Shown here in pieces: positions 39,933 to 53,458 of a DNA stretch of 64,000 nt. The stretch covers positions 1 to 64,000 of the forward strand of contig NZ_JACOFR010000004.1 in assembly GCF_019455385.1 (NCBI RefSeq), written 5' to 3'. Every line of letters begins with the position of its first letter. Position 1 is the first letter of the stretch. Source of the DNA: Bradyrhizobium sp. BR 10289. GTDB taxonomy: Bacteria; Pseudomonadota; Alphaproteobacteria; Rhizobiales; Xanthobacteraceae. The translations under genes were made by a program, and so were the position numbers. The notes beneath the pieces were generated by a model, which had not been told where the DNA came from, did no database searches, and saw nothing but the letters and a program-made list of their open reading frames with translations.

Positions 39933-40528
39933 TGGCGCGGATCATTCATCTCGTGCGTCACGGCCATCATGCCCTGCTCGGCCGCACGCTGTGCGGCCGG
40001 ATGGGCGGCGTCACGCTCGACGACATCGGCTGCGGGGAGATCATCCGTTGTGCAGCCGCCGTCGGCCCCCGGCCATCGCTGATCCAGTCGAGCCCGCAGA
40101 GGCGCTGCATGCAATCCGCCAGCATTCTGGCTGCGCGCTTCGGATTGCCTGTCGAGATCGTTCCTGCTCTGGACGAACTCGACTATGGTGAATGGACCGG
40201 CAGGTCTTTCGAGGAGCTCAGCGAGGATCCGCAATGGTCGCGTTGGAACAGTCATCGCGGCAGCACGCGCCCACCCGGAGGCGAGAGCATGCGGTCGCTT
40301 CAGACGCGGGTCGTCCGACATCTGGAGCAGCTGCGATCTGACCATCTTGCAGAGTCGGTCATCGCAATCAGCCACGCCGAACCCATTCGTGCGGCGCTGC
40401 TGCATTACGCGCGCATGAAGCTTGACGACTTTCTTTCGATTACGATCGATCCCTCAAGCGTCAGCACCCTCAGTGCGGATCAACGCGGCTTCAGGATCAC
40501 CGGGATCAACCAGCGGGTGCCGGCGTGA
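39932..40528 (+). CDS. Histidine phosphatase (phosphoglycerate mutase-like) family protein
   Basis: A 198-residue protein with the RHG motif LVRHGHH (phosphorylated His at about residue 8), a second conserved Arg in SSPQRRCMQSA, ELDYGEWTG, and the late catalytic His in AISHAEP. Members mostly act as phosphatases. In this operon, directly after inositol-phosphate synthase, a role in removing phosphate from an inositol or sugar phosphate is a reasonable inference. The ATG at 39932 overlaps the upstream stop (TGATG); an ATG three codons earlier also exists. Confidence 0.86.
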   Translation: MARIIHLVRHGHHALLGRTLCGRMGGVTLDDIGCGEIIRCAAAVGPRPSLIQSSPQRRCMQSASILAARFGLPVEIVPALDELDYGEWTGRSFEELSEDPQWSRWNSHRGSTRPPGGESMRSLQTRVVRHLEQLRSDHLAESVIAISHAEPIRAALLHYARMKLDDFLSITIDPSSVSTLSADQRGFRITGINQRVPA

Positions 40529-41628
40529 AGATCGTCATTTTCGGACTGACCATCTCCTCATCCTGGGGCAATGGCCACGCGACGCTCTGGCGCGGCCTGT
40601 GCAAGCATCTGACGCGTCTCGGCCACACCGTAGTCTTCTACGAGCGCGACGTGCCCTATTATGCCGGCGCCCGGGACTTCCATGAATTGCCCGGTGGGCA
40701 GCTGAGGCTTTTTGCCAATTGGGAGGAGGCCCGCCCCCTCGCCCGCAATGACATCGCGGATGCGGATGTTGCGATCGTGACGTCCTACTGTCCCGACGCC
40801 ATTGCGGCAACCGACCTGATCATGTCCGAACGGCGCGCCGTTCCCATCTTCTACGATCTGGATACTCCGATCACGCTGGCGCGGCTCATGGCGGGAGACT
40901 CCGTTCCCTATATCGGCCCGCGAGGCCTGCGCGACTTCGCGCTCGTCCTCAGCTTCACCGGCGGACCTCGCGTCGTTCAGGAATTTCGCGATCGGCTCGG
41001 CGCCCGCGATATCCGCCCTCTTTATGGGCACGTCGACAGCGACATTCATCGCCCGGTGCCGCCCGAGCCGCATTATCGCGCGGAGCTGTCCTATCTCGGC
41101 ACCTATTCCGAAGATCGCCAGCGCGGGCTCGAAGCGCTGTTCGTCGAACCTGCGCGAGCGCGGCAAGACCTGCGTTTCCTGATCGGCGGAGCGCAATATC
41201 CCGACGACTTTCCGTGGTCGCCCAACATCTATTTTGTACGGCATCTGCCGCCGTCGGAACATGCGCCTTTCTTTGCGTCCTCTCGCCTGACCCTCAACGT
41301 GACGCGCAAGGCCATGGCGGAGATGGGCTGGTGCCCTTCCGGCCGCCTGTTCGAGGCGGCGGCCTGCGGCGTTCCGCTCCTGAGCGACGACTGGCCGGGC
41401 ATCGAGGAGTTCTTCACGCCCGGCAGCGAGATCCTGATCGCCCACGATGCGCAGGACACTTTGGGCGCGTTGGCGATGTCGAGCCCCGACCTGCAGTCCA
41501 TCGCGAGGCGCGCCTATGAGCGGACGATGGATCAGCACACATCCGACAAACGCGCGCGCGAGCTGGTGGCGCTGCTCGAGCAGGCGGTATCCAGCGGCGC
41601 GCGTCACCAGCAATCCGAGGAGGCCTGA
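40525..41628 (+). CDS. CgeB-like glycosyltransferase
   Basis: A 367-residue GT-B type protein of the CgeB/glycosyltransferase-1-like family. It begins [20 protein letters not shown], with [17 protein letters not shown] in the middle and the GT-B nucleotide-binding end [24 protein letters not shown]. It has no membrane segment, so it should act in the cytoplasm. It is a clear paralogue of the protein at 52334-53458 (same SSWGNGHAT and TYSEDRQ stretches). The start is GTG at 40525, overlapping the upstream stop by four bases. Confidence 0.85.
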   Translation: MKIVIFGLTISSSWGNGHATLWRGLCKHLTRLGHTVVFYERDVPYYAGARDFHELPGGQLRLFANWEEARPLARNDIADADVAIVTSYCPDAIAATDLIMSERRAVPIFYDLDTPITLARLMAGDSVPYIGPRGLRDFALVLSFTGGPRVVQEFRDRLGARDIRPLYGHVDSDIHRPVPPEPHYRAELSYLGTYSEDRQRGLEALFVEPARARQDLRFLIGGAQYPDDFPWSPNIYFVRHLPPSEHAPFFASSRLTLNVTRKAMAEMGWCPSGRLFEAAACGVPLLSDDWPGIEEFFTPGSEILIAHDAQDTLGALAMSSPDLQSIARRAYERTMDQHTSDKRARELVALLEQAVSSGARHQQSEEA

Positions 41629-41629
41629 C

Positions 41630-42439
41630 ATGTGGGGCATCGTTCCGGCTGCGGGCCGCGGCAGTCGTATCCAGCCACTGGCTTTTTCCAAGGAGCTGTT
41701 GCCCGTCGGCAGCCGGCGCGACGACGGCACCGAGCGTCCCTGCGCGGTCTCCGAGTATCTGCTGGAACGCTTGATCCTCGGCGGCGCGGACAAGATCTGC
41801 TTCGTGATCTCGCCGGGCAAATCGGACATTCTCGAATATTTCGGCGATCATTACGGCAGCGCCCAGCTCGCCTATGTCGTCCAGCCCGACGCCTCAGGCC
41901 TGTGCGACGCCGTCTTCAGGGCCGGCACCGTCGTGGGCCACGATGAAGACGTCATCGTCGGCCTCCCCGACACCGTCTGGTTTCCAAAGGCCGCTTTGCA
42001 GGCGTTGCCCGATGCGGACCTCTCATTCCTGCTCTTTCCCGTCGAGCGTCCGGAATTCTTCGACGCCGTCGTGCTCGAAGGCGACAACGTGCGGGAGATC
42101 CAGGTCAAGCAGCCGAATCCGACATCGCGGTGGATCTGGGGTGCATTCCGAATGTCGGCCACCGGCTTTCGCGAATTGCACGCGCTCTGGAACGAACGGG
42201 ACCGACGCGACGAGTATTTTGGGACGCTCGTCAACGCCTATCTCCAGGCCGGCGGCCTCGGCATCGGGATCAAGGCAGGCGAATCCTATGTCGATGTCGG
42301 GACCGTCGATGGCTATCGCACCGCGATGGCTCTGCTGGCCGAGAGCACCGGCACCGACAGCCGGTCGCGGCTGTGGTCCGGCGCCTCGGCCGACGAGGCT
42401 CGGCCGACCCATGCAATGAACAATGGAGCGACTGCATGA
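41630..42439 (+). CDS. Sugar nucleotidyltransferase
   Basis: A 269-residue enzyme of the glucose-1-phosphate nucleotidyltransferase (RmlA/GalU) fold. PAAGRGSRIQPLAFSKELLP carries the nucleotide-binding G-x-G-x-R and the Lys of the signature. VGLPDTVWFP holds the metal Asp and AGESYVDVGTVDGY the product-site end. It should activate a sugar 1-phosphate to an NDP-sugar for the glycosyltransferases around it. GAGGAGG lies before the ATG at 41630. The next gene overlaps by four bases. Confidence 0.88.
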   Translation: MWGIVPAAGRGSRIQPLAFSKELLPVGSRRDDGTERPCAVSEYLLERLILGGADKICFVISPGKSDILEYFGDHYGSAQLAYVVQPDASGLCDAVFRAGTVVGHDEDVIVGLPDTVWFPKAALQALPDADLSFLLFPVERPEFFDAVVLEGDNVREIQVKQPNPTSRWIWGAFRMSATGFRELHALWNERDRRDEYFGTLVNAYLQAGGLGIGIKAGESYVDVGTVDGYRTAMALLAESTGTDSRSRLWSGASADEARPTHAMNNGATA

Positions 42440-43200
42440 CTGGAGCGCTGCTCACGCGTGAGGAGATCCGCAGGCGCGTCGATGCGCTCGGCCCGTGGTT
42501 TCACAACCTCGACCTCAACGGCGTGCCGACCGCACCGACCCACTTTCTCGGCGACTATCCCAATGTGAAATGGCGGCGCTTCTCGGGAATCATCCCGGAC
42601 CGCCTCGAAGGCAAGACCGTGCTCGATATCGGCTGCAACGCCGGCTTCTATGCCATGGAGATGAAGCGGCGGGGCGCCGAGCGCGTGCTTGGGCTCGATA
42701 CCGACGAGGAATACCTGGCGCAGGCGCGCTTTGCCAGCGAGGTGAACGGTCTTAGGATCGAATTCCACAAGATGTCGGCCTATGATGTCGGACAGCTCCG
42801 CGAGAAGTTCGATCTCGTGATCTTCATGGGCGTGCTCTATCACCTGCGCCATCCTCTGCTGGCGTTGGATCTCATCCACGAGCACGTCGCCAGGGATCTC
42901 CTGCTGTTCCAGTCGATGCAGCGCGGCGCCAGCCATGTCGACGCGGTCGAGAAGAACTACGACTTCTGGACCACCGACCAGTTCGATTCTGCCGGCTATC
43001 CCAGGCTGCACTTCATCGAGCACAAATATGCCGACGATCCCACCAATTGGTGGGTGCCGAACCGGGCCTGCGTCGAGGCCATGCTGCGCAGCGCCGGCTT
43101 TGCCATCGCCGCGCATCCGGAAGAGGAAGTCTATCTCTGCAAGCGAACGGAGCGACCGCAGGTTGACGGTCCCGTCTATCCATCCCGGAGCACAAGCTGA
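42436..43200 (+). CDS. SAM-dependent methyltransferase
   Basis: A 254-residue class I methyltransferase. Motif I is VLDIGCNAGFYAMEM, the motif II region GLDTDEEY, then FDLVIFMGVLYHLRHP. The N-terminal extension (IRRRVDALGPWFHNLDLNGV) and the WTTDQFDSAGYP and NWWVPNRACVEAML stretches recall a family (TIGR04290, from memory) tied to this kind of gene cluster and to carbohydrate modification, like tRNA-modifying CmoB in fold. It probably methylates the glycan or a precursor. It overlaps both neighbours. Confidence 0.84.
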   Translation: MTGALLTREEIRRRVDALGPWFHNLDLNGVPTAPTHFLGDYPNVKWRRFSGIIPDRLEGKTVLDIGCNAGFYAMEMKRRGAERVLGLDTDEEYLAQARFASEVNGLRIEFHKMSAYDVGQLREKFDLVIFMGVLYHLRHPLLALDLIHEHVARDLLLFQSMQRGASHVDAVEKNYDFWTTDQFDSAGYPRLHFIEHKYADDPTNWWVPNRACVEAMLRSAGFAIAAHPEEEVYLCKRTERPQVDGPVYPSRSTS

Positions 43201-44153
43201 TGATCGAGGCGGCCAAGATCTGGAACGAACCGAACAACAAATCGCATTGGGATCTGCTGATCGATCCGGACTGGGCCATGTTCGCAAACCTTGCGACTGC
43301 AGCGGGCAAGGCGATCCGCAGTACGCAGCCCCAACTTCCCGTCGTTCTCGGCGGCATCTCGCCGATCGATCCGTCCTTCATGCGCAATATGCAGAGCCGC
43401 GGCGTGCTCGACCATTTCGATGCGGTCGCCGTGCACGGCTTTCCGCTCGACTGGAACCTGTGGCAGATCGGCGAGTGGCCGGCCAAGCTCGAGGAGATCA
43501 AGGCGGTCACCACCCTGCCCGTGTGGGTGACGGAGGTCGGCGTCTCCTCGTTCGGCGCCGAAGAGGTACAAGCCTGGGGCCTGTCGCGCACCGCCGAACT
43601 GCTGATTGGCCGGGCTCCGCGTATCCATTGGTACAGCCTGTACGACCTGCCCTCGGCCTGGGAAGCAACGACACGGCACAAGGAGGCCGAAGGCTCATCC
43701 TATTACAGGCATTTCCATATGGGCCTGCTGCGCGAGGACGGCACGCCGAAGGCAGCCGCCGATCTGTTCGGCGCCTATGCGCCCGCCATGGGCCTGTGCC
43801 AGTGGTTCCATTTCGAGGATCACCGCTTGCACGACTCGGTGCATTGGATGCGCCGTCTCGGCGTGACTTGCTTGCGGACCGGTCTGTCATGGGCCGACAG
43901 CTTCCGTCCCAATGCGCTCGACTGGTTTGACCGGCAAATGGAGGCGTTGGCAGAATTCCAGGTTACAGTGACGTTCTGCTTCACGCCCGAACATCGGGGC
44001 GTCGAGCCGCATCACACCAGCCCGCCGCTCGACGTCAATGAATTCGCCGACTTTTGCGCAGCGATGACCGATCGCTACTGCAGCAGAACCGGTCTGGCCT
44101 CCCTTCCGGCCTCGGCCGATCCTCCCATTAGAGAGCCAACATGCGTGCCCTGA
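43200..44153 (+). CDS. GH-A clan glycoside hydrolase, apparently circularly permuted
   Basis: A 317-residue protein resembling GH39-type beta-xylosidases, but with the barrel parts in swapped order. It starts straight at the acid/base strand: [15 protein letters not shown] (Glu10). It then shows VVLGGISP, the nucleophile strand [14 protein letters not shown] (Glu112) and IHWYSLYDL. Only after residue 205 does it show what normally comes first: [40 protein letters not shown], and [20 protein letters not shown]. There is no signal peptide. The gene is intact (ATG overlapping the upstream TGA, clean stop), so it need not be a fragment. It may act as a hydrolase or transglycosidase on the glycan. 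Confidence 0.75.
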
Positions 44154-45346
44154 TCCTGGTGATGGATTCGGTCGGCATCGGCGGCGCGCCGGACGCCGCC
44201 CGCTACGGTGACGAAGGCGCCGACACTGTCGGTCACATCGCGGAAGCCTGCACGGCCGGACACGCCGACAGCAACGTCCGAGAGGGGCCGCTCCGGATTC
44301 CCAATCTCGTGGCGCTCGGCCTCGGCGAAGCCTGCCGCCTCGCCACGGGGCGCCTGCCGCCCGGCCTGGAAGGTCAGCCGCAGCACGGGCAATTCGGATG
44401 CGCCAGCGAAATTTCGAAGGGCAAGGACACGCCTTCGGGCCATTGGGAGATCGCCGGGGTCCCCGTCCCGTTCGACTGGGGCTATTTCCCGCGCACGCGG
44501 CCGTGCTTTCCCGCAGAATTGACAAGAGACTTCTGCGAGCAAGCCGGCGTACCCGGCATCCTCGGAGATTGCCACGCCTCGGGGACCGAGATCATCGCCG
44601 AGCTCGGCGAGCGTCACATGCAGACCGGAATGCCGATCTGCTACACGTCCGCCGACAGCGTGTTCCAGATCGCGGCACATGAGGAGACCTTCGGGCTCGA
44701 ACGTCTCTATGGCATCTGCGCGACTGCGAGGCGGCTGATCGATCCCCTCAATATCGGCCGCGTCATCGCCAGGCCATTTGCCGGCACAAACGCGCGCGAT
44801 TTCAAGCGGACTGCTCACCGCCGCGATTTTTCGGTCCCGCCGCCCGGGAGCACAATACTTGACCTCGCCGCAAGCGGCGGTCGCGACATCGTGACGGTCG
44901 GCAAGATCGACGACATCTTCGCCCATCGCGCGACCGGGCGAAACATGCGCGGCGACGGCAATATGGCGTTGTTCGATGCCACACTGAAAGGGCTGGCGAG
45001 CCTGGCGGACGGAGGATTGCTGTTCGCCAACTTCATCGATTTCGACACGCTCTATGGTCATCGCCGTGATGTCGCCGGTTATGCCGCGGCACTCGAAGCC
45101 TTCGACGATCGCCTCCCGGAGTTATTGTCCCGCCTGCGCAGCAATGATCTTCTGATCCTCACCGCGGATCACGGCTGCGATCCGACCTGGAGCGGCACCG
45201 ACCACACCCGCGAGCAGGTACCGATCCTGACCTGGTCGACGCAATCATCTTCCTCCATCGGCCGTCGCGCCGGCTTCGCCGATATTGGCGCAACCGCGAT
45301 CCGGCATCTTGGCCTGCCAGAACCCATCCACGGCGCGTCCTTCTAG
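44141..45346 (+). CDS. deoB: Phosphopentomutase
   Basis: A 401-residue enzyme of the alkaline-phosphatase superfamily that interconverts (deoxy)ribose 1- and 5-phosphate. It starts [20 protein letters not shown] (metal Asp), has [15 protein letters not shown] (phospho-acceptor Thr region), and ends with [20 protein letters not shown] and [18 protein letters not shown]. The catalytic and metal motifs look complete. Normally it serves nucleoside salvage, but here it overlaps the glycoside-hydrolase gene by 13 bases at the end of a glycan operon, hinting that it supplies or handles a pentose phosphate. Confidence 0.92.
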
Positions 45347-45556: not shown

Positions 45557-46669
45557 ATGACGCGGGTATTGATTACAGGGGGCGCGGGCTTCATCGGCTC
45601 TCATGCGGCGGATGTGCTGCTCGCCGCGGGCTACGAGGTTCGTCTGCTCGACAACCTTTCGCCGCAGGTCCACGGCGGCAACCGGCAACGCCCCTCCTAT
45701 CTCGCCGACGATGCCGAACTCATCGTCGGTGACGTCACTGACGGCCTCGCCGTCGAGCATGCGCTGCGCGGCGCCGACATGGTCCTGCACCTTGCGTCCG
45801 CGGTCGGCGTCGGCCAGAGCATGTACGACATCGAGCCCTACGTGCGGACGAACGAACTCGGCACCGCCGTCCTCCTCCAGGCGCTGTCCAGGCGCCCGGT
45901 CGCGCGCCTGGTGGTCGCCTCCTCCATGAGCATCTACGGTGAAGGTCTCTATCGCCGGGCCGACCAGAGCGTCGTCGCCTGCGACGAACGGTCGATCGAG
46001 CAGCTTCGCCGAGGCGAATGGGAACTTCACGACACGGCTGGCCATCCCCTCGCGCCCGTGGCCACGCCGGAGAGCAAACTGCCCTCACTCAGCTCTGTGT
46101 ATGCACTGAACAAGTTTGCGCAGGAGCGCATGTGCCTGATCACAGGCAAGGCCTACGGCATTCCCACCGTGGCGCTGCGCTTCTTCAACGTGTTCGGCCC
46201 GCGCCAGGCGCTGTCAAATCCTTACACCGGCGTGCTCGCGATCTTTGCCGCACGGCTGCTCAACGGGCGGCCGCCGCTCGTGTTCGAGGACGGCGAGCAG
46301 CGGCGCGACTTCGTTCACGTGCACGACGTCGCCCGCGCCTGTCGCATCGCGCTGGAGGCGGGGCATGCGCAAGACGTCTTCAACGTCGGCTCGGGCCAAA
46401 GCCGGTCCATCCTGTCGGTCGCCGAGGACCTCGCCGAGGTCATGGGACGCAGTGATATCGCGCCCGAAGTCACGCGGAAATATCGCGCCGGCGATATCAG
46501 GCACTGCTTCGCCGATATCGGCAAATCACGCGATCTGCTCGGTTTCGAGCCGCACGTCGCCTTCAGGGACGGTCTTGAGGAACTCGCGGACTATCTCGCA
46601 GACCAGATCGCGGACGATCAGGCCGAGCGGGCGACCCAGGAATTGCTGCAGCGAGGATTGGTTGCGTGA
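45557..46669 (+). CDS. NAD-dependent sugar epimerase/dehydratase
   Basis: A 370-residue extended SDR. The cofactor motif is [17 protein letters not shown], the catalytic Ser is in VVASSMSIYGEG, and YALNKFAQE supplies Tyr and Lys. NVFGPRQALSNPYTGVLAIF and DGEQRRDFVHVHDVARA are typical of UDP-sugar 4-epimerases and related dehydratases. An insertion around residues 130-175 separates the Ser and Tyr motifs. GGAG lies six bases before the ATG. It opens the second glycan operon. The exact sugar is unknown. Confidence 0.88.
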   Translation: MTRVLITGGAGFIGSHAADVLLAAGYEVRLLDNLSPQVHGGNRQRPSYLADDAELIVGDVTDGLAVEHALRGADMVLHLASAVGVGQSMYDIEPYVRTNELGTAVLLQALSRRPVARLVVASSMSIYGEGLYRRADQSVVACDERSIEQLRRGEWELHDTAGHPLAPVATPESKLPSLSSVYALNKFAQERMCLITGKAYGIPTVALRFFNVFGPRQALSNPYTGVLAIFAARLLNGRPPLVFEDGEQRRDFVHVHDVARACRIALEAGHAQDVFNVGSGQSRSILSVAEDLAEVMGRSDIAPEVTRKYRAGDIRHCFADIGKSRDLLGFEPHVAFRDGLEELADYLADQIADDQAERATQELLQRGLVA

Positions 46670-47733
46670 TGAACGAGCGAGACAACAGGCCCGTCCTGAT
46701 CACCGGTGGCTGCGGCTTCATCGGCTGCAATCTGGCCGACCGGCTGGCAAACCGCGGCGAGCGCGTCCTGGTGATGGACAATCTGTCCCGTGCCGGCGTG
46801 CGCGAGAACGCACAATGGCTGAAATCCAGACATGGCGATCTGATCACCATCACGGTGGCCGACATTCGCGAGCCCATTCCCGTGATCGATGCCGTGCGCG
46901 AGGCTCGCGCCGTACTGCATCTGGCTGCCCAGGTCGCCGTCACCGACAGCGTCAGCGACCCGGCGGCCGATTTCGAGATCAACGCACGCGGGACCCTCAA
47001 CGTGCTCGAAGCGGTCCGGCTGCACAACAGCACCGCACCGGTCGTGTTCGCCTCCACCAACAAGGTTTATGGCCGCCTGATCGAGGACAGCGAGATCGTG
47101 CTCACCGGCCGCCGTTATACGCCCACCAGCCCCCTGCTGGCGGATGGCATCTCCGAGAACGCTCCGCTCGATTTCTACAGTCCGTATGGCTGCTCCAAGG
47201 GAACCGCCGACCAGTACGTCCACGACTATGCACGGGTCTACGGCCTTCAGACCGTGGTGATGCGCATGAGCTGCATCTACGGGCCGCGCCAGTTCGGCAC
47301 CGAGGACCAGGGCTGGATCGCGCATTTCCTGCTGAGCGCGCTCCGCGGCACGCCGCTGACGATCTACGGCGACGGCCATCAGGTTCGCGACGCCCTGCAC
47401 GTGTCGGATGCGACGGCTGCGTGGCTCGCAGTGCTTGATCGGATCGCACTCGCGCGCGGACGCGTGTTCAATCTCGGTGGCGGCCCCGCAAATGCGGTCA
47501 GCCTTCGCGAGCTCATCGACCACATTGCACGATTGACCGGCCGCGAAGTCAATTGCCGCTTTGCCGATTGGCGACCTGGCGATCAGCCCTGGTACGTCAC
47601 CGACACGCGCGCGCTGTCAACCGCGCTCGGATGGTCACCGCAGGTTCCCTTCGCCGAGGGCCTCCGCTCTCTTCACACCTGGCTGGACACTCGCTTCGGA
47701 GCAGCTCACGGCAGCCGCGAGGCTCTCGCATGA
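46669..47733 (+). CDS. NAD-dependent epimerase, CDP-paratose 2-epimerase-like
   Basis: A 354-residue extended SDR with ITGGCGFIGCNLADRL, VFASTNKVYGRL, and SPYGCSKGTADQYVHDYARV (Tyr and Lys), followed by MSCIYGPRQFGTEDQGWIAHF. The STNKVYG and GTEDQGW wording is that of the CDP-paratose/tyvelose 2-epimerase branch rather than of 4-epimerases. It therefore may act at C2 of a nucleotide sugar. The ATG at 46669 overlaps the upstream TGA; a GTG one codon earlier is possible. It overlaps the radical SAM gene by four bases. Confidence 0.86.
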   Translation: MNERDNRPVLITGGCGFIGCNLADRLANRGERVLVMDNLSRAGVRENAQWLKSRHGDLITITVADIREPIPVIDAVREARAVLHLAAQVAVTDSVSDPAADFEINARGTLNVLEAVRLHNSTAPVVFASTNKVYGRLIEDSEIVLTGRRYTPTSPLLADGISENAPLDFYSPYGCSKGTADQYVHDYARVYGLQTVVMRMSCIYGPRQFGTEDQGWIAHFLLSALRGTPLTIYGDGHQVRDALHVSDATAAWLAVLDRIALARGRVFNLGGGPANAVSLRELIDHIARLTGREVNCRFADWRPGDQPWYVTDTRALSTALGWSPQVPFAEGLRSLHTWLDTRFGAAHGSREALA

Positions 47734-49016
47734 CGCGCGTCGCCCTGATCAACCCGAATTGGGATTTCGGCGGCAGCATCTATTTCGGCTGCCGGTCCCC
47801 CCACCTTCCGCTCGAGCTCGGGATCTCCGAGCATTACCTCAAGGCGGCCGGGCATCGGTCGCTGCTGCTCGACGCACACATGTTCGATCTGTCGTTTCGG
47901 GACATCGCAGCCGAGCTGCGCGCGTTCGGACCCGATCTGATCGTCATCACGACAGCGCCGACCTATCTGTTCTGGCGCTGTGCACCGCCTGAACTGCGCG
48001 TTCCGCAGGAGCTTGCACTGGCGGTGCGGGATCTTGCACCGACCCTGATCGCTATCGGCCCGCACGGCTCGACGACGCCGCGGGCGGCTCTCAAGAAGCT
48101 TGCCGTCGACATCATCGTGATGGGCGAGTGCGAGGCATCCCTGCTGCGCCTTGCAAACGGGGAGCGCGATTTTTCCGGCCTGTGCTTTGCGGACGGCGAC
48201 TCGGTCCGGATCAATGGCGGTCCGCAGGCTGTCGACTTCAGGGATCAGCCGGCCCTCGACTGGCCGGATGAGATGATCCGGCGTCATCATCATCATCATC
48301 ACCGTTTCGAGGCCGAGCCGGCAGGACCCGGCGCAGAGGTCGAGGCGTCGCGGGGATGCCCCTATAACTGTACGTTCTGCGCCAAGGAGAATTTTCGTAA
48401 TAGCTATCGCAAGCGTCCACCGGCGGTCATTCTTGACGAGATCGATCGGCTGCGTGGACAAGGCGTCGAATATGTCTACTTCATCGACGAAATCTTCCTG
48501 CCGAACCCCGAGCTGTTGACCGGGCTGAGCACGCGGGGCCTCAAGTTCGGCGTGCAGACGCGCATCGATCTGTGGAAGCCGGACATGCTCGCTTTGCTTG
48601 GCCGCGCCGGCTGCGTCTCGATCGAGGCCGGGATCGAAAGTCTCACCGTGGAGGGTCGCGCCGCGCTCGCCAAGAACTGCCGGATGACCACCGACCAGCT
48701 TGCCGACCGGCTGGTCGAAGCCCGCCGCCACGTCCCCTTCGTGCAGGCCAATCTGATCGAGGTGCCCGAGGACGATGATCCCGTCGTTCAGCGCTGGCGG
48801 CGCAAGATGCAGGATGCCGGCATCTGGGCGAACGATCCGGTTCCGCTCTACCCCTATCCCGGCTCGCCTGACTACCGAAAACTGTGGGGCGAGGCGGACG
48901 ATTTCGCCTGGGAGCGCGCGCACCGGCATTACCTCGGGATGTTCGATCAGTTCAGCGACGTGCAGAACGATCGTCCTGTCCCGCTTGATGCCCTCGAACA
49001 TCCGGTGGCGTTATGA
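47730..49016 (+). CDS. Radical SAM enzyme with N-terminal B12-binding-type domain
   Basis: A 428-residue protein. Residues 1-135 form a Rossmann-like domain of the cobalamin-binding type (VALINPNWDFGGSIYFGC, LPLELGISEHYLKAAGH, IVMGECE); the DxHxxG cobalamin motif is not clear. The radical SAM domain has the cluster motif CPYNCTFC (Cys210, 214, 217) and VYFIDEIFLPN. Between the domains lies a natural tract of six His (186-191). Such enzymes methylate or rearrange unactivated carbons, so a C-methylation or ring change of a sugar is possible. I recall a family TIGR04295 of this kind in similar clusters, unverified. Both ends overlap neighbours by four bases. Confidence 0.86.
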   Translation: MTRVALINPNWDFGGSIYFGCRSPHLPLELGISEHYLKAAGHRSLLLDAHMFDLSFRDIAAELRAFGPDLIVITTAPTYLFWRCAPPELRVPQELALAVRDLAPTLIAIGPHGSTTPRAALKKLAVDIIVMGECEASLLRLANGERDFSGLCFADGDSVRINGGPQAVDFRDQPALDWPDEMIRRHHHHHHRFEAEPAGPGAEVEASRGCPYNCTFCAKENFRNSYRKRPPAVILDEIDRLRGQGVEYVYFIDEIFLPNPELLTGLSTRGLKFGVQTRIDLWKPDMLALLGRAGCVSIEAGIESLTVEGRAALAKNCRMTTDQLADRLVEARRHVPFVQANLIEVPEDDDPVVQRWRRKMQDAGIWANDPVPLYPYPGSPDYRKLWGEADDFAWERAHRHYLGMFDQFSDVQNDRPVPLDALEHPVAL

Positions 49017-50125
49017 GCAGAGATGCGAATATCAGGGTATTGATGACGACCGACACCGTCGGCGGCGTGTGGACCTATTCCTGCGCCCTCGCTTCGAGCC
49101 TAGCCGCGTCGGGCGCCGACGTTACTCTTGTGACGATAGGGCCGCCCGCGCGCGCCGACCAGCGCGAGATGCTGAGCGACTCGCAAGTCGACCTCATCGA
49201 GACCGACCTCGCTCTCGAATGGCAAGACCCGGAGGGCCGCGACCTGCCCAAGGCAAGACGCGTCCTCCCGAGCCTCGAAGCGCGCCTCAAGCCCGATATC
49301 GTCCATCTCAATAGCTTCCGCGAAGCGACCCTGCCGTGGCGCGCGCCGACCGTTGTCGTGGCACACTCCTGCGTCAACTCGTGGGCGCTGGCCTGCCGGG
49401 ATACAGCCTGGCTCGGCGAGCCCCGTTGGGCCCGATATACCGAACGGGTTGCCGCAGCGCTCGACGGCACGCAGGTCTGGGTGTGCCCGAGCCAGTCCTT
49501 CCACGACGACATCATGGAGATCTATCATCCCCGCTCGCCCGGAGCGGTGATCTGGAACGGCACTTCCGCTGGGACTCTGCCAAGTCGTAAGCGGGAGGTC
49601 ATCTTCGCAGCCGGCCGGCTCTGGGATCGTGCCAAGAACATCGAAGTTCTGTCCGCGGCTGCACGGGGCCTGGATTGGCCGGTTCAGGTCGCAGGCCCTG
49701 CCAATGCGGATGCATCGACAGACGTCACCTGGCTTGGACAATTGCCGCACAGCGCGTTGCGCGGACATCTCGCGCACGCAGCGATCTTCGTCAGCCCGGC
49801 GCTGTACGAGCCGTTCGGCCTCACGGTTTTGGAGGCCGCCGCCGCCGGGTGCGCGCTCGTGCTGTCAGACATTCCGACGTTCAGAGAGTTGTGGACCGGC
49901 GCCGCGCTGTTCTTCGATCCGCGCGACGGTCAAGCGTTGCACCAAACCCTCACCGCGCTCTGCGCCGATGAGACCGGACGAGCCAGTCTGCAACACGCCG
50001 CCTATGAGCACTCCCTGACCTATTCGCTGGCGCGCACAACCAGCGCTTATCTGAAGCTCTACGAGGGGCTCCTCGCGCCCAATCGCGCAAAATCACCACT
50101 GGGCCAGATCGAGGTGCGCGCATGA
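49013..50125 (+). CDS. GT4-type glycosyltransferase
   Basis: A 370-residue GT-B glycosyltransferase of the GT4 type. The N-terminal TTDTVGGVWTYSCALASSLA is the usual acceptor-domain start with the G-G-V-x-x loop. The donor domain has VIFAAGRLWDRAKNIEVLSA and the retaining motif SPALYEPFGLTVLEAAAAGC with its two Glu residues. It is expected to use an NDP-sugar in the cytoplasm. It overlaps the radical SAM gene and the next gene by four bases each. Confidence 0.9.
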   Translation: MSRDANIRVLMTTDTVGGVWTYSCALASSLAASGADVTLVTIGPPARADQREMLSDSQVDLIETDLALEWQDPEGRDLPKARRVLPSLEARLKPDIVHLNSFREATLPWRAPTVVVAHSCVNSWALACRDTAWLGEPRWARYTERVAAALDGTQVWVCPSQSFHDDIMEIYHPRSPGAVIWNGTSAGTLPSRKREVIFAAGRLWDRAKNIEVLSAAARGLDWPVQVAGPANADASTDVTWLGQLPHSALRGHLAHAAIFVSPALYEPFGLTVLEAAAAGCALVLSDIPTFRELWTGAALFFDPRDGQALHQTLTALCADETGRASLQHAAYEHSLTYSLARTTSAYLKLYEGLLAPNRAKSPLGQIEVRA

Positions 50126-51252
50126 AATGCGTCCTGTTCTATCACGCGTTCACCTCCTGCTGGAACAACGGCAATGCGCATTTCCTGCGCGGCTATGCCC
50201 GCGAGTTGCACGCACTCGGACACGAGGTCGTGGTGTTCGAGCCGATCGACGGCTGGAGCCGCCTGAATGCCATCCGGGAGGCCGGCAGTCAGGCGTTGCA
50301 AGACGTCGGCCAGCTATTCCCTGGCATCTCCATTCGTCGCTATGACGCCTCGCTCGATTTCGACGAAGCGCTGGATGGCGCCGATATCGTCGTCGTGCAT
50401 GAGTGGAATTCGCCTGACGTGATCGAGAAGATCGGACAAAGGCGCGCGCACGGTGCCCCCTTCACACTGCTGTTCCACGACACCCATCACCGCGCGGTTA
50501 CCGCCCCGGACGAGCTCGCACAGTTCGACCTCGACGCATTCGACGGCGTGCTGGCCTTCGGCGAGGTGCTTCGCCAAATCTACGCGAAGCTCGGTTGGGG
50601 CAATCGGGCCTACACATGGCACGAGGGTGCCGATGTCGCGATGTACCGCCCTCTGCCGAATGTCGAACGTACCGACGATCTGGTCTGGATCGGCAATTGG
50701 GGTGACGGCGAACGCAGCGCCGAGCTGAGCGAATTTCTCGTCGACCCCGTCGCCGAGCTGAAGCTGCGCACAAGCATATATGGCGTGCGCTATTCCGGTG
50801 CGGCGCTCGAGACCATTCGAGCCGCGGGCATCCGCTACGGCGGCTGGCTGCCGGCACATTGGGCACCGGTCGCCTTCGCCGGCGCCCGCGCGACCATCCA
50901 TGTTCCGCGTGGGCCCTATGTGCGGTTGCTTCCGGGAATTCCCACCATCCGCGTGTTCGAGGCGCTCGCCTGCGGCATTCCCCTGGTATCGGCCCCCTGG
51001 TCCGATGCGGAAAGGCTGTTTCCGGATGGCGCTTATCTCCAGGCTGCGAATGGCACTGAGATGAAGCGCGTGCTCCGAGACGTTCTCGACGATCAAGCGC
51101 TGTCTTCCGCAATGATCGAGACCGGCCTCCGGACAATCCGCGAGCGTCATACCTGTCGTCATCGCGCACAACAGCTTGTCGGCATCGCGGAGGACATCCG
51201 TGCGACATGCTCATCGTCGCCACTGCCGCGATACATCGGAGCTTCCGCATGA
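50122..51252 (+). CDS. CgeB-like glycosyltransferase
   Basis: A 376-residue GT-B-like protein beginning KCVLFYHAFTSCWNNGNAHF, with FTLLFHDTHHRAVT and DLVWIGNWGDGERSAELSEF in the middle and the donor-domain end TIRVFEALACGIPLVSAPWS. It is a more distant relative of the CgeB-like proteins at 40525 and 52334. It starts inside the stop of the GT4 gene and overlaps the next gene by four bases. Confidence 0.82.
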   Translation: MKCVLFYHAFTSCWNNGNAHFLRGYARELHALGHEVVVFEPIDGWSRLNAIREAGSQALQDVGQLFPGISIRRYDASLDFDEALDGADIVVVHEWNSPDVIEKIGQRRAHGAPFTLLFHDTHHRAVTAPDELAQFDLDAFDGVLAFGEVLRQIYAKLGWGNRAYTWHEGADVAMYRPLPNVERTDDLVWIGNWGDGERSAELSEFLVDPVAELKLRTSIYGVRYSGAALETIRAAGIRYGGWLPAHWAPVAFAGARATIHVPRGPYVRLLPGIPTIRVFEALACGIPLVSAPWSDAERLFPDGAYLQAANGTEMKRVLRDVLDDQALSSAMIETGLRTIRERHTCRHRAQQLVGIAEDIRATCSSSPLPRYIGASA

Positions 51253-52337
51253 AGATCTGCTTCTTCGGATCCAGTCTCGTCTCGTCCTACTGGAACGGTG
51301 CCGCCACCTACTATCGCGGCATGCTCAAGCAGATTGCGGCGCTCGGGCACGACATTACATTCTTCGAGCCCGACGCCTTCGAGCGGCAGGCCCATCGCGA
51401 CATTGCCGATCCCGACTGGGCCAGGGTGGTCGTCTACCCCGCGACGACCGAGGGCTGGCGCGGCGCGCTCGATGTCGCCGCGCGATCGGCCGATATGCTG
51501 ATCAAGGCCAGCGGCGTCGGCGTCTTCGATTCCGAGCTGGAGCTCGCAGTGGCGGCTCTGCCCTCCCGGACCGTGCGGATCTACTGGGATGTCGATGCTC
51601 CCGCCACGCTGGAAGCGATGGCAGGAGACCCCGAGCACCATCTCCGGCGCGCGATTTCCTCCTACGACATGGTCCTGACCTACGGCGGCGGCGATGGCGT
51701 CGTATCGGCATACCGCGCGATTGGTGCCCGCGATTGCGTGCCGATCTACAACGCGCTCGATCCCGAGACGCATTTTCCGTCCCCGCCCAAACCGGGCTTC
51801 GCCTGCGATCTCAGCCTGCTGGCAAATCGTCTGCCCGATCGTGAACAGCGCGTCGAACGCTTCTTTCTCGACGTCGCGCGCGAACTGCCGGACAAGACCT
51901 TCGTCCTCGGCGGCTCCGGCTGGGAGACCAAGGACACTGCGAGCAATATCCGCAAGATCGGGCATGTCGGAACCGGCGAGCACAATGCATTCTTCGGCTC
52001 AGGCCTTGCCACGCTCAACGTCAATCGCGACAGCATGGCGCGCTACGGCTTCTCGCCGCCGACGCGGGTGTTCGAAGCGATCGGCGCCGGCGCCTGTCTG
52101 ATCACCGACCAGTGGGACGGTATCGACCACTTCCTCGAGCCGGGTCGCGAAGTGCTGGTGGCGGCAAATGGAGCGGAGGCTGCCAGCCACCTCGACGCCC
52201 TCAGCATTGATCGCGCCGCAGCGATTGCGAGCCGTGCCCGCGCTCGCATCCTGAGCCACCATACCTATCGGCATCGCGCCAACCAGTTCAACCAAATCTT
52301 CGTCGGAAGCAGCTCGCGCATCGAGGCAGCAGAATGA
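51249..52337 (+). CDS. CgeB-like glycosyltransferase
   Basis: A 362-residue GT-B-like protein beginning KICFFGSSLVSSYWNGAATY, with VRIYWDVDAPATLEAM, CDLSLLANRLPDREQRVERF, and the donor-domain end RVFEAIGAGACLITDQWDGI. The ATG at 51249 lies inside the upstream stop (ATGA) and starts the fold directly, so a longer in-frame start at 51207 was rejected. Function beyond glycosyl transfer cannot be said. Confidence 0.83.
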   Translation: MKICFFGSSLVSSYWNGAATYYRGMLKQIAALGHDITFFEPDAFERQAHRDIADPDWARVVVYPATTEGWRGALDVAARSADMLIKASGVGVFDSELELAVAALPSRTVRIYWDVDAPATLEAMAGDPEHHLRRAISSYDMVLTYGGGDGVVSAYRAIGARDCVPIYNALDPETHFPSPPKPGFACDLSLLANRLPDREQRVERFFLDVARELPDKTFVLGGSGWETKDTASNIRKIGHVGTGEHNAFFGSGLATLNVNRDSMARYGFSPPTRVFEAIGAGACLITDQWDGIDHFLEPGREVLVAANGAEAASHLDALSIDRAAAIASRARARILSHHTYRHRANQFNQIFVGSSSRIEAAE

Positions 52338-53458
52338 ACCTCAGCATCGTCATCGTCGGTCTCTCGGTCACATCGTCATGGGGCAACGGTCACGCCACGA
52401 CCTATCGCGCCCTGATCGAGGGCCTGGCGCGACGAGGCCACCAAATTACGTTCCTGGAGCGCGACGTCGCCTGGTATCGCGAGCATCGCGATCTCACCAA
52501 GCCGTCAGAGTGGAGGGTCGAGCTCTATCAGTCGCTGAAGGATGTCCCTCGCCGCTTCGGAAAGCTGATCCGGGACGCCGACCTCGTCATCATCGGCTCC
52601 TATGTGCCTGACGGTATCGCCATCTCCGAATGGATCACGAGCCAAGCGCGAGGGGTCACCGCCTTCTACGACATCGACACGCCGGTGACCCTGGCCCGGA
52701 TCGACCAGGGCCTCGATTATTTGTCCGCCGCGATGATCCCGCGTTTCGACCTCTATCTGTCCTTCGCCGGCGGTCCGGTGCCGGAAATGATCGAGCAGCG
52801 CTACGGCAGCCCGCTGGCGCGAGTTCTCTATTGCAGCGCCGACGCCGGCACATACGCGCCGCAACAGGCGCAGACAAAATGGGCGCTCGGCTATCTCGGA
52901 ACCTACAGCGAGGACCGGCAACCCGTCCTCGAACAATTGCTGCTATCCCCGGCACGGACATTGTCGTCCGAGCAGTTCGCTGTCGCCGGCGCGCAATATC
53001 CCGACTATATCGGCTGGCCTGACAATGTCATGCGGATCGAGCATCTCGCGCCCCATCAGCATCCGACGTTCTACGCGGAGCAGAGGTTCGCGTTGAATGC
53101 GACTCGCGCCGACATGCGCGCGCTGGGCTTCTCACCGAGCGTCCGACTGTTCGAAGCAGCCGCCTGTGGCACGCCCGTGATTTCCGACCGATGGCCGGGC
53201 ATCGAGACGATCTTCGAGCCGACGCAGGAAATCCTGCTGGCCTCAACGGCGCGCGACGTTATCGAGATCCTGCGCGACATGCCCGAGGAACGCCGACGTT
53301 CGATCGCGGAGCGCGCGCGTCGGCGGGTTCTGACGGATCACACCGCCGATCACCGGGCTCGCCAGCTGGAGACCTACTACGCCGAAGCCACCGCGCGACG
53401 CCGCCGGAAATCCGCGCGGCTTCCCGCCGGCCGCCCGGTTCAGGTCGCCGAACTCTGA
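52334..53458 (+). CDS. CgeB-like glycosyltransferase, paralogue of the 40525 gene
   Basis: A 374-residue GT-B-like protein with [58 protein letters not shown] and [20 protein letters not shown]. These stretches match the protein at 40525-41628 closely, showing a duplication within the cluster, one copy in each operon. The C-terminus is Arg-rich. It overlaps the preceding gene by four bases. Confidence 0.85.

Follow-up and report, generated by a model that had tools for sequence, protein, structure and literature searches.

A clan GH-A-like glycosidase gene of Bradyrhizobium and other Alphaproteobacteria that looks like a natural circular permutant

The gene and its surroundings

The window, by which we mean the whole 64,000-nucleotide stretch of Bradyrhizobium sp. 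BR 10289 DNA that was analysed (contig NZ_JACOFR010000004.1, positions 1 to 64,000), contains a sugar biosynthesis cluster with a small glycosidase-like gene, P0001, whose two barrel segments stand in swapped order. A genome scan with permuted proteins as query gave the best 80 of at least 576 relatives, confirmed by tblastn; because it returned the best 80 for that query, it counts neither the permuted nor the normal-order form. Alignment A2 comprises P0001 and 65 of these 80 loci, and A3 is a profile of the normal-order form. The features of the region are as follows.

42436..43200, + strand: TIGR04290 methyltransferase (376.6 bits, cut-off 300); its stop shares one base with the ATG of the permuted gene
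43200..44153, + strand: circularly permuted GH-A-like glycosidase gene (P0001), 317 aa; intact open reading frame from ATG to stop
43200..43784, + strand: β4 to β8/α8 segment, residues 1-195, equivalent to the C-terminal part of the normal-order barrel (model strands; profile A3 104-289)
43227..43229, + strand: Glu10, predicted acid/base, in WNEPNN at the end of β4; invariant in 66 of 66 A2 rows and in 80 of 80 loci (best 80 of at least 576)
43533..43535, + strand: Glu112, predicted nucleophile, in WVTEVG at the end of β7; invariant in 66 of 66 A2 rows, motif in 80 of 80 loci (best 80 of at least 576)
43785..44099, + strand: β1 to α3 segment, residues 196-300, equivalent to the N-terminal part of the normal-order barrel (model strands; profile A3 2-101)
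44100..44150, + strand: C-terminal tail, residues 301-317, of low confidence (pLDDT < 50) and poorly conserved; relatives vary here in length and sequence
44141..45346, + strand: phosphopentomutase-family gene, strong score; overlaps the end of the permuted gene by 13 bases
46666..47733, + strand: stand-alone SDR epimerase/dehydratase, counterpart of the C-terminal domain in the normal-order GH-SDR fusion
47730..49016, + strand: TIGR04295 B12-binding radical SAM protein of the same cluster (713.2 bits, cut-off 400)

The initial annotation had described the frame, start and stop of the permuted gene as intact, which they are, and the WNEPNN (Glu10), WVTEVG (Glu112), RTGLSWAD and β3 stretches lie where it had placed them. 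Its β1-type stretches, put from residue 205 onwards, fall in the right region, but β1 itself begins slightly earlier (model strand 198-200).

Other neighbours of the permuted gene are inositol-3-phosphate synthase-like, histidine phosphatase, nucleotidyltransferase, methyltransferase and UDP-glucuronate decarboxylase-like genes. Four CgeB-like glycosyltransferases (window 40525-41628 and 50122-53458) lie in one cluster; the one CgeB-like protein tested gave no NCBIfam match. Among the best 80 of at least 576 relatives, TIGR04290 lies upstream on the same strand, with its match ending within 105 bases of the permuted gene, in 76 of the 77 loci with room for it, and 64 of the 80 loci carry a stand-alone SDR that shares at least 48% identity with the SDR domain of the fusion. 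The 73 of 80 loci that were checked for a further GH copy showed none. In plasmid records of Sinorhizobium medicae and Ensifer adhaerens, the permuted gene follows a histidine phosphatase and no TIGR04290 is annotated nearby. A phosphopentomutase-family-like gene, whose window copy lies inside the sugar biosynthesis cluster, occurs in 36 of the 80 best loci (of at least 576). A literature search for TIGR04290 and for six guessed SMb202xx gene names found no publication on them.

Swapped segments and the predicted barrel

Normal-order homologues, about 35% identical to P0001, exist; in these the domain sits N-terminal to an NAD-dependent epimerase (SDR) within one fusion protein. Named records come from Tistrella, R. 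etli, Paracoccus sp. AK26, a Geminicoccaceae bacterium, R. leguminosarum and R. phaseoli, and the form was also found in 6 of 385 sampled class genomes. In the chains of Tistrella, R. etli, Paracoccus sp. AK26 and these six class genomes, the counterpart of P0001 residues 191-293 comes first and is followed, within about 10 residues, by that of residues 2-190. Both P0001 segments are 29-37% identical to the normal-order homologues and share with them the catalytic motifs and both Glu residues. Profile A3 accordingly matches the P0001 gene twice, in swapped order: its positions 104-289 at 43206-43769 with 112.2 bits, and its positions 2-101 at 43791-44084 with 46.9 bits. The cut falls in the α3-β4 loop, where the Tistrella chain reads ...LTRHGRHFPRIELWNEPNN... 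and P0001 has ...MTDRYC near its C-terminal end.

Rotation of P0001 by about 195 residues turned the two swapped half-matches into one full-length match, and the best rotations fell within residues 187-197 for all six normal-order homologues. The local score against these six was 310-397 rotated and 244-300 unrotated, and shuffled controls, with 20 shuffles for each homologue and a trial at every 20th rotation, reached at most 59, so chance was rejected as the source of the rotated match. In global alignments, the aligned pairs rose from 202-207 to 279-283 and the score from 120-179 to 314-398. Identity among the aligned pairs, at 34-37% against 35-39% before rotation, is no higher; what rotation improves is aligned length and score. 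Thus, both segments are homologous to one and the same domain, their order is swapped and the old termini are joined, as in a circular permutant of a TIM-barrel glycosidase.

AlphaFold2, given 66 sequences, modelled P0001 with eight strands (residues 2-8, 48-53, 75-79, 108-113, 142-145, 198-200, 224-230 and 254-260) and a helix at 279-297, with a pLDDT of 81.6 and a pTM of 0.82; the weak loops are 83-86 and 156-167 (pLDDT < 50). The initial annotation had pointed out that two incomplete, unrelated domains would speak against a permuted barrel, and the model is not made of two such part-domains. VIA-align, which is taken to be sequential like DALI, fitted model residues 1-300 onto whole TIM barrels (best Z 14.4, rmsd 3.4 Å, 213 residues), so that, by prediction, the permuted chain holds a complete fold. 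The matches cover many TIM-barrel families, with no GH39 or PslG entry among the 50 rows listed. Foldseek against the PDB placed generic TIM barrels first, with TM-scores by query length of 0.28-0.44 in the 50 rows listed, and aligned FMN-binding β-glucuronidases over only 181-187 columns of the model. Foldseek is likewise a sequential method, and such low TM-scores are expected of it on a permuted chain; no closest fold is identified by them.

The internal symmetry of TIM barrels might by itself favour rotated alignments, and the permutation could in principle be apparent only, the two segments being unrelated to β1-β3 and β4-β8 of GH-A barrels. VIA-align superposes the unrotated model over its whole length on a large number of TIM barrels (Z of at least 8 for 932 of 1000 chains); this and the flat percent identity are what such an explanation would predict. 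For symmetric folds, however, a gain in sequence similarity on rotation is a published criterion (PMC2395249), and here rotation lifts both aligned pairs and score, the rotated local scores lying far above the shuffled controls. As each segment is also homologous to the normal-order proteins residue by residue, down to the motifs and both Glu residues, we consider symmetry a very improbable source of the pattern and retain a circular permutation.

A second alternative, raised in the initial annotation itself, is that the gene is truncated or mis-started, a real β1-β3 half lying upstream and the C-terminal stretch being the start of a second repeat. In many GC-rich relatives, the open frame does continue upstream. 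In P0001, however, an in-frame stop lies about 11 codons before the ATG (the open frame is 328 aa long), which leaves no room for a hidden upstream half. Moreover, across the best 80 of at least 576 loci, a start codon (ATG or GTG) stands at the same residue 1 in all 80, and no homologue has an extra N-terminal β1-β3 half; the best match to β1-β3 or β4-β8 outside the gene has E = 0.3, and neither a tandem barrel nor a leftover half was found near the gene in any of the 80. For these loci the alternative is refuted, and for the gene at large we give it practically no credence. One of 15 loci in a motif check (L207) gave no full gene; its match starts at residue 15, at the end of a contig piece.

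As normal-order relatives exist, SDR-fused and in the same kind of cluster, 43200-44153 seems to be a true rearrangement that arose in nature rather than a damaged gene. The order β4-β8 followed by β1-β3, which the initial annotation had read as a circular permutation, is borne out by sequence, by the normal-order homologues, by the predicted eight-stranded barrel and by a tree with a single origin (below).

The family of P0001 is named by neither Pfam nor NCBIfam. No NCBIfam model matched. Unrotated P0001 gave matches below the cut-off to four Pfam GH families, in which the start of the protein aligns with a central or later stretch of the profile; in the GH5 match, residues 6-118 correspond to profile positions 125-241 of 272. 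GH5 (PF00150) rose from 18.1 to 27.2 bits on rotation, above its cut-off of 23.5, and this match crosses the joined native ends. The other three stayed below: GH39 (PF01229) with 11.3 unrotated and 18.8 rotated against 26, GH53 (PF07745) with 15.5 and 20.4 against 24, and PF11790 with 17.7 and 18.2 against 21. Neither GH70 nor GH13 was among the Pfam matches. "GH39-type", the term used in the initial annotation, can therefore be kept as a loose label, but the GH39 cut-off is not reached even after rotation, whereas that of GH5 is. Profile searches thus miss permuted enzymes of this kind, one of four Pfam families passing only after rotation. Membership of clan GH-A is indicated by N-E-P at β4, Glu at β7, Arg at β2, His at β6 and an aromatic residue at β8 in A2, where N9, E10, H79, E112, W144, R226 and W231 are invariant over 66 rows; we take N9/E10, E112, R226, H79 and W144 to be the clan residues.

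The normal-order proteins are also overlooked. Three of them (L032, L035, L039) bear no label beyond NAD-dependent epimerase/dehydratase or SDR family protein, and the Tistrella GH-SDR protein (L032, the one tested against Pfam) gave no GH domain at E ≤ 1; annotation thus misses the GH half of these proteins. A gammaproteobacterial normal-order GH-SDR fusion is carried by the Xanthomonas sacchari R1 plasmid (L169:10001-10941), with a frame break in β1-β3, real or due to sequencing error, and an annotated CDS that starts inside the homologous region. In viral contigs, 14 stretches fit a normal-order-form pattern and none of them was a relative.

Distribution, ancestry and the fused domain

The permutation is not a local oddity of one genome, but the form of a family present in many Alphaproteobacteria. 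In answer to the question whether homologues share the same order, all 80 loci (the best 80 of at least 576) have the same start residue, and in each of them WNEPNN comes first, the nucleophile motif second and RTGLSW third. Full-length permuted matches were found in 8 of the 385 genomes sampled from the class and in 12 of the 398 sampled from the phylum, the source genome included in both; all 12 belong to the same class, and the two sets share one genome besides the source genome. The permuted form also has 97 plasmid records at 60% identity or more, of which seven were inspected (L033, L034, L036, L037, L038, L040, L041), and a normal-order query gave 43 at the same threshold. A single-genome artefact was rejected on the grounds of these many genomes and plasmid records. 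The only non-alphaproteobacterial name among the best 80 loci belongs to a Thermoleophilia MAG contig (L098) with a permuted gene 78% identical to P0001, which is probably mis-binned alphaproteobacterial DNA. Both parts of the protein are constrained: dN/dS of P0001 against nine relatives was 0.05-0.19 over residues 1-290, with dS above 1 for some pairs, and by segment 0.03-0.20 (residues 1-195) and 0.04-0.16 (196-290).

The GH tree was built from 36 of 84 permuted rows, rotated, with 14 normal-order and 8 outgroup rows, L169 (because of its frame break) and later loci being left out. The permuted rows form one clade (98/96) and the fused normal-order rows another (100/99), and the two join (100/99) as sisters against the eight outgroup rows, the translations of which are all in normal order by eye. 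With both the sister clade and the outgroup in normal order, permutation is the derived state. A long branch separates the permuted from the fused clade (2.2 changes per column on each side), those leading to the outgroup are even longer, and the tree program issued a warning that long branches meet; the permutation event cannot be dated from this tree. The one clade of permuted rows shows that the permuted form arose once, from a normal-order ancestor resembling the N-terminal domain of the GH-SDR fusion. The route may have been a duplication followed by trimming of both ends.

In a tree of SDRs (22 stand-alone rows, from the window and 21 of the 80 loci; 17 of 18 fused rows, L189 having failed the motif cut; 5 outgroup rows), the stand-alone SDRs were placed among the fused ones. 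This suggests that they derive from fused proteins, as if the GH domain had been lost, but the AU test rejects neither the stand-alone nor the fused SDRs as one clade (p 0.24 and 0.19).

The clusters around the two forms are alike. In the normal-order form, the GH domain lies N-terminal to the SDR epimerase/dehydratase domain, and its clusters contain a second SDR and several glycosyltransferases; clusters of both forms have two SDRs, GT4-type and further glycosyltransferases and, in several cases, TIGR04290, TIGR04295 and UDP-glucuronate decarboxylase. Near the normal-order form, both TIGR04290 and TIGR04295 are annotated in Tistrella and the Geminicoccaceae bacterium, and TIGR04290 also in Paracoccus AK26 and Xanthomonas; the inspected stretch of R. 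etli has no TIGR04290 annotation.

The permutant appears to have taken the place of the fused normal-order domain. In genus g285, an intact permuted gene occurs together with a fused normal-order copy in all five genomes. The five fused copies (L028, L194, L195, L196, L204) keep their frame into the SDR domain, yet all five have lost the acid/base Glu and four the nucleophile (L204 keeps it), whereas all five permuted copies keep both Glu residues. Among five genomes of genus g183, G820 has only the fused form, G824 and G828 have only the permuted form (G824 with a weak third match in addition), and two have neither. No fused form was found in six of the eight permuted class genomes; G407 has a degenerate one, and G264 has, in addition to its permuted copy, a fused one that is visible only in part and retains the nucleophile Glu, which counts against strict replacement. 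Likewise, none was found in the 12 permuted phylum-sample genomes. Both searches scored no more than five first-look candidates in any genome, and these absences are therefore not proof. Most sampled genomes with the permutant either yielded no fused domain or have one in which catalytic residues are missing, so the stand-alone permuted enzyme most likely took over its step.

Alternatively, the permutation may be true and the permuted enzyme may have acquired a new function, be it on a different substrate, in transglycosylation or without catalysis, the fused domain having decayed for other reasons. The long branch to the fused clade is compatible with this, as is the apparent presence of both forms in G264, and gene order differs as well, with TIGR04290 adjoining in the scan loci and histidine phosphatase before the gene in Sinorhizobium and Ensifer. 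Against this, the clusters around both forms are similar, the permutant has kept all catalytic motifs, and catalytic residues of the fused copy have been lost in all five g285 genomes. We regard a new function as unlikely, though the least implausible of the alternatives, and prefer replacement. On balance, we lean towards a scenario in which the GH-A-like permutation freed the glycosidase from its epimerase fusion and made the ancestral domain redundant, its stages still being represented by living genomes: fused and active, both forms with the fused one decayed, and permuted alone with a stand-alone epimerase.

Proposed function and known permuted barrels

Taken together, P0001 is very probably a retaining GH-A-type glycosidase or transglycosidase, probably cytosolic, and a natural permutant of single origin from a GH-SDR-type ancestor; it most likely took over from the fused domain. 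By sequence, the chain opens at β4 with Glu10, passes Glu112 at β7 and closes with β1-α3, the old termini being joined by a short α8-β1 link and the new ends lying in the α3-β4 loop; the model predicts that it folds, and the motifs point to Glu10 as acid/base and Glu112 as nucleophile. Clan GH-A enzymes work by retaining double displacement, and the conserved Glu pair implies the same reaction here. By eye, a signal peptide seems to be absent from both the permuted and the normal-order forms, and the normal-order form is joined to an SDR; action in the cytosol, probably during biosynthesis, is therefore expected. Judging by its neighbours alone, the enzyme's probable role would be sugar trimming or sugar transfer on an intermediate in the synthesis of an oligosaccharide that is methylated, UDP-xylose-dependent and possibly inositol-containing.

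The closest system for comparison is the normal-order GH-SDR domain, which is homologous to P0001 in both segments and shares its motifs and a similar cluster, but has the order β1-β8 and is fused to the SDR. PslG and other WNEPN GH-A enzymes are much diverged and in normal order. Only a weak match links them to P0001 (PslG β4 region, 16.4 bits, E 0.035 for that stretch), the PslG β1-β3 region giving a non-significant 0.6 bits, and PslG-like rows serve as outgroup in the GH tree. PslG, moreover, is secreted.

GH70 enzymes are multidomain proteins with a catalytic machinery other than that of GH-A. GH70 glucansucrases and GtfB are described as circular permutants of the GH13/GtfC barrel with the order α3-β4...β8-α8-β1...β3, explained by duplication and trimming (PMC4919382, PMC9732880). 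The pair resembles P0001 in being a natural permutation of a (β/α)8 glycosidase with known normal-order relatives and a cut at almost the same place; it differs in belonging to clan GH-H and in that α3 leads the GH70 chain, whereas α3 stays C-terminal in P0001. Other permuted barrels are more distant. Transaldolase B and class I aldolase are TIM barrels related by circular permutation (PMC2213659), but they are not glycosidases and the shift is of two units. The N-terminal domain of PgaB (carbohydrate esterase family 4) is described in PMC13366581 as a circularly permuted carbohydrate-active barrel; unlike P0001, it is a deacetylase with an (α/β)7 barrel and not a GH. MalS (GH13_19) shows a permutation of domain order (PMC10223318), and one published list of natural permutants includes β-glucosidases and glucosyltransferases (PMC2395249). 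No report of a circularly permuted clan GH-A enzyme was found in the open literature, most subscription papers lying outside the search.

Few cases were found in the literature of a natural permutant of a catalytic TIM barrel whose normal-order relatives still live, GH70 versus GH13 being the clear one among glycosidases. P0001 would be another, in a different clan, with nearly the same cut (β3/α3-β4), in a small single-domain protein and with the fused, decayed and replaced stages still living. Such a system makes it possible to test how permutation affects folding, stability and freedom from a fusion partner.
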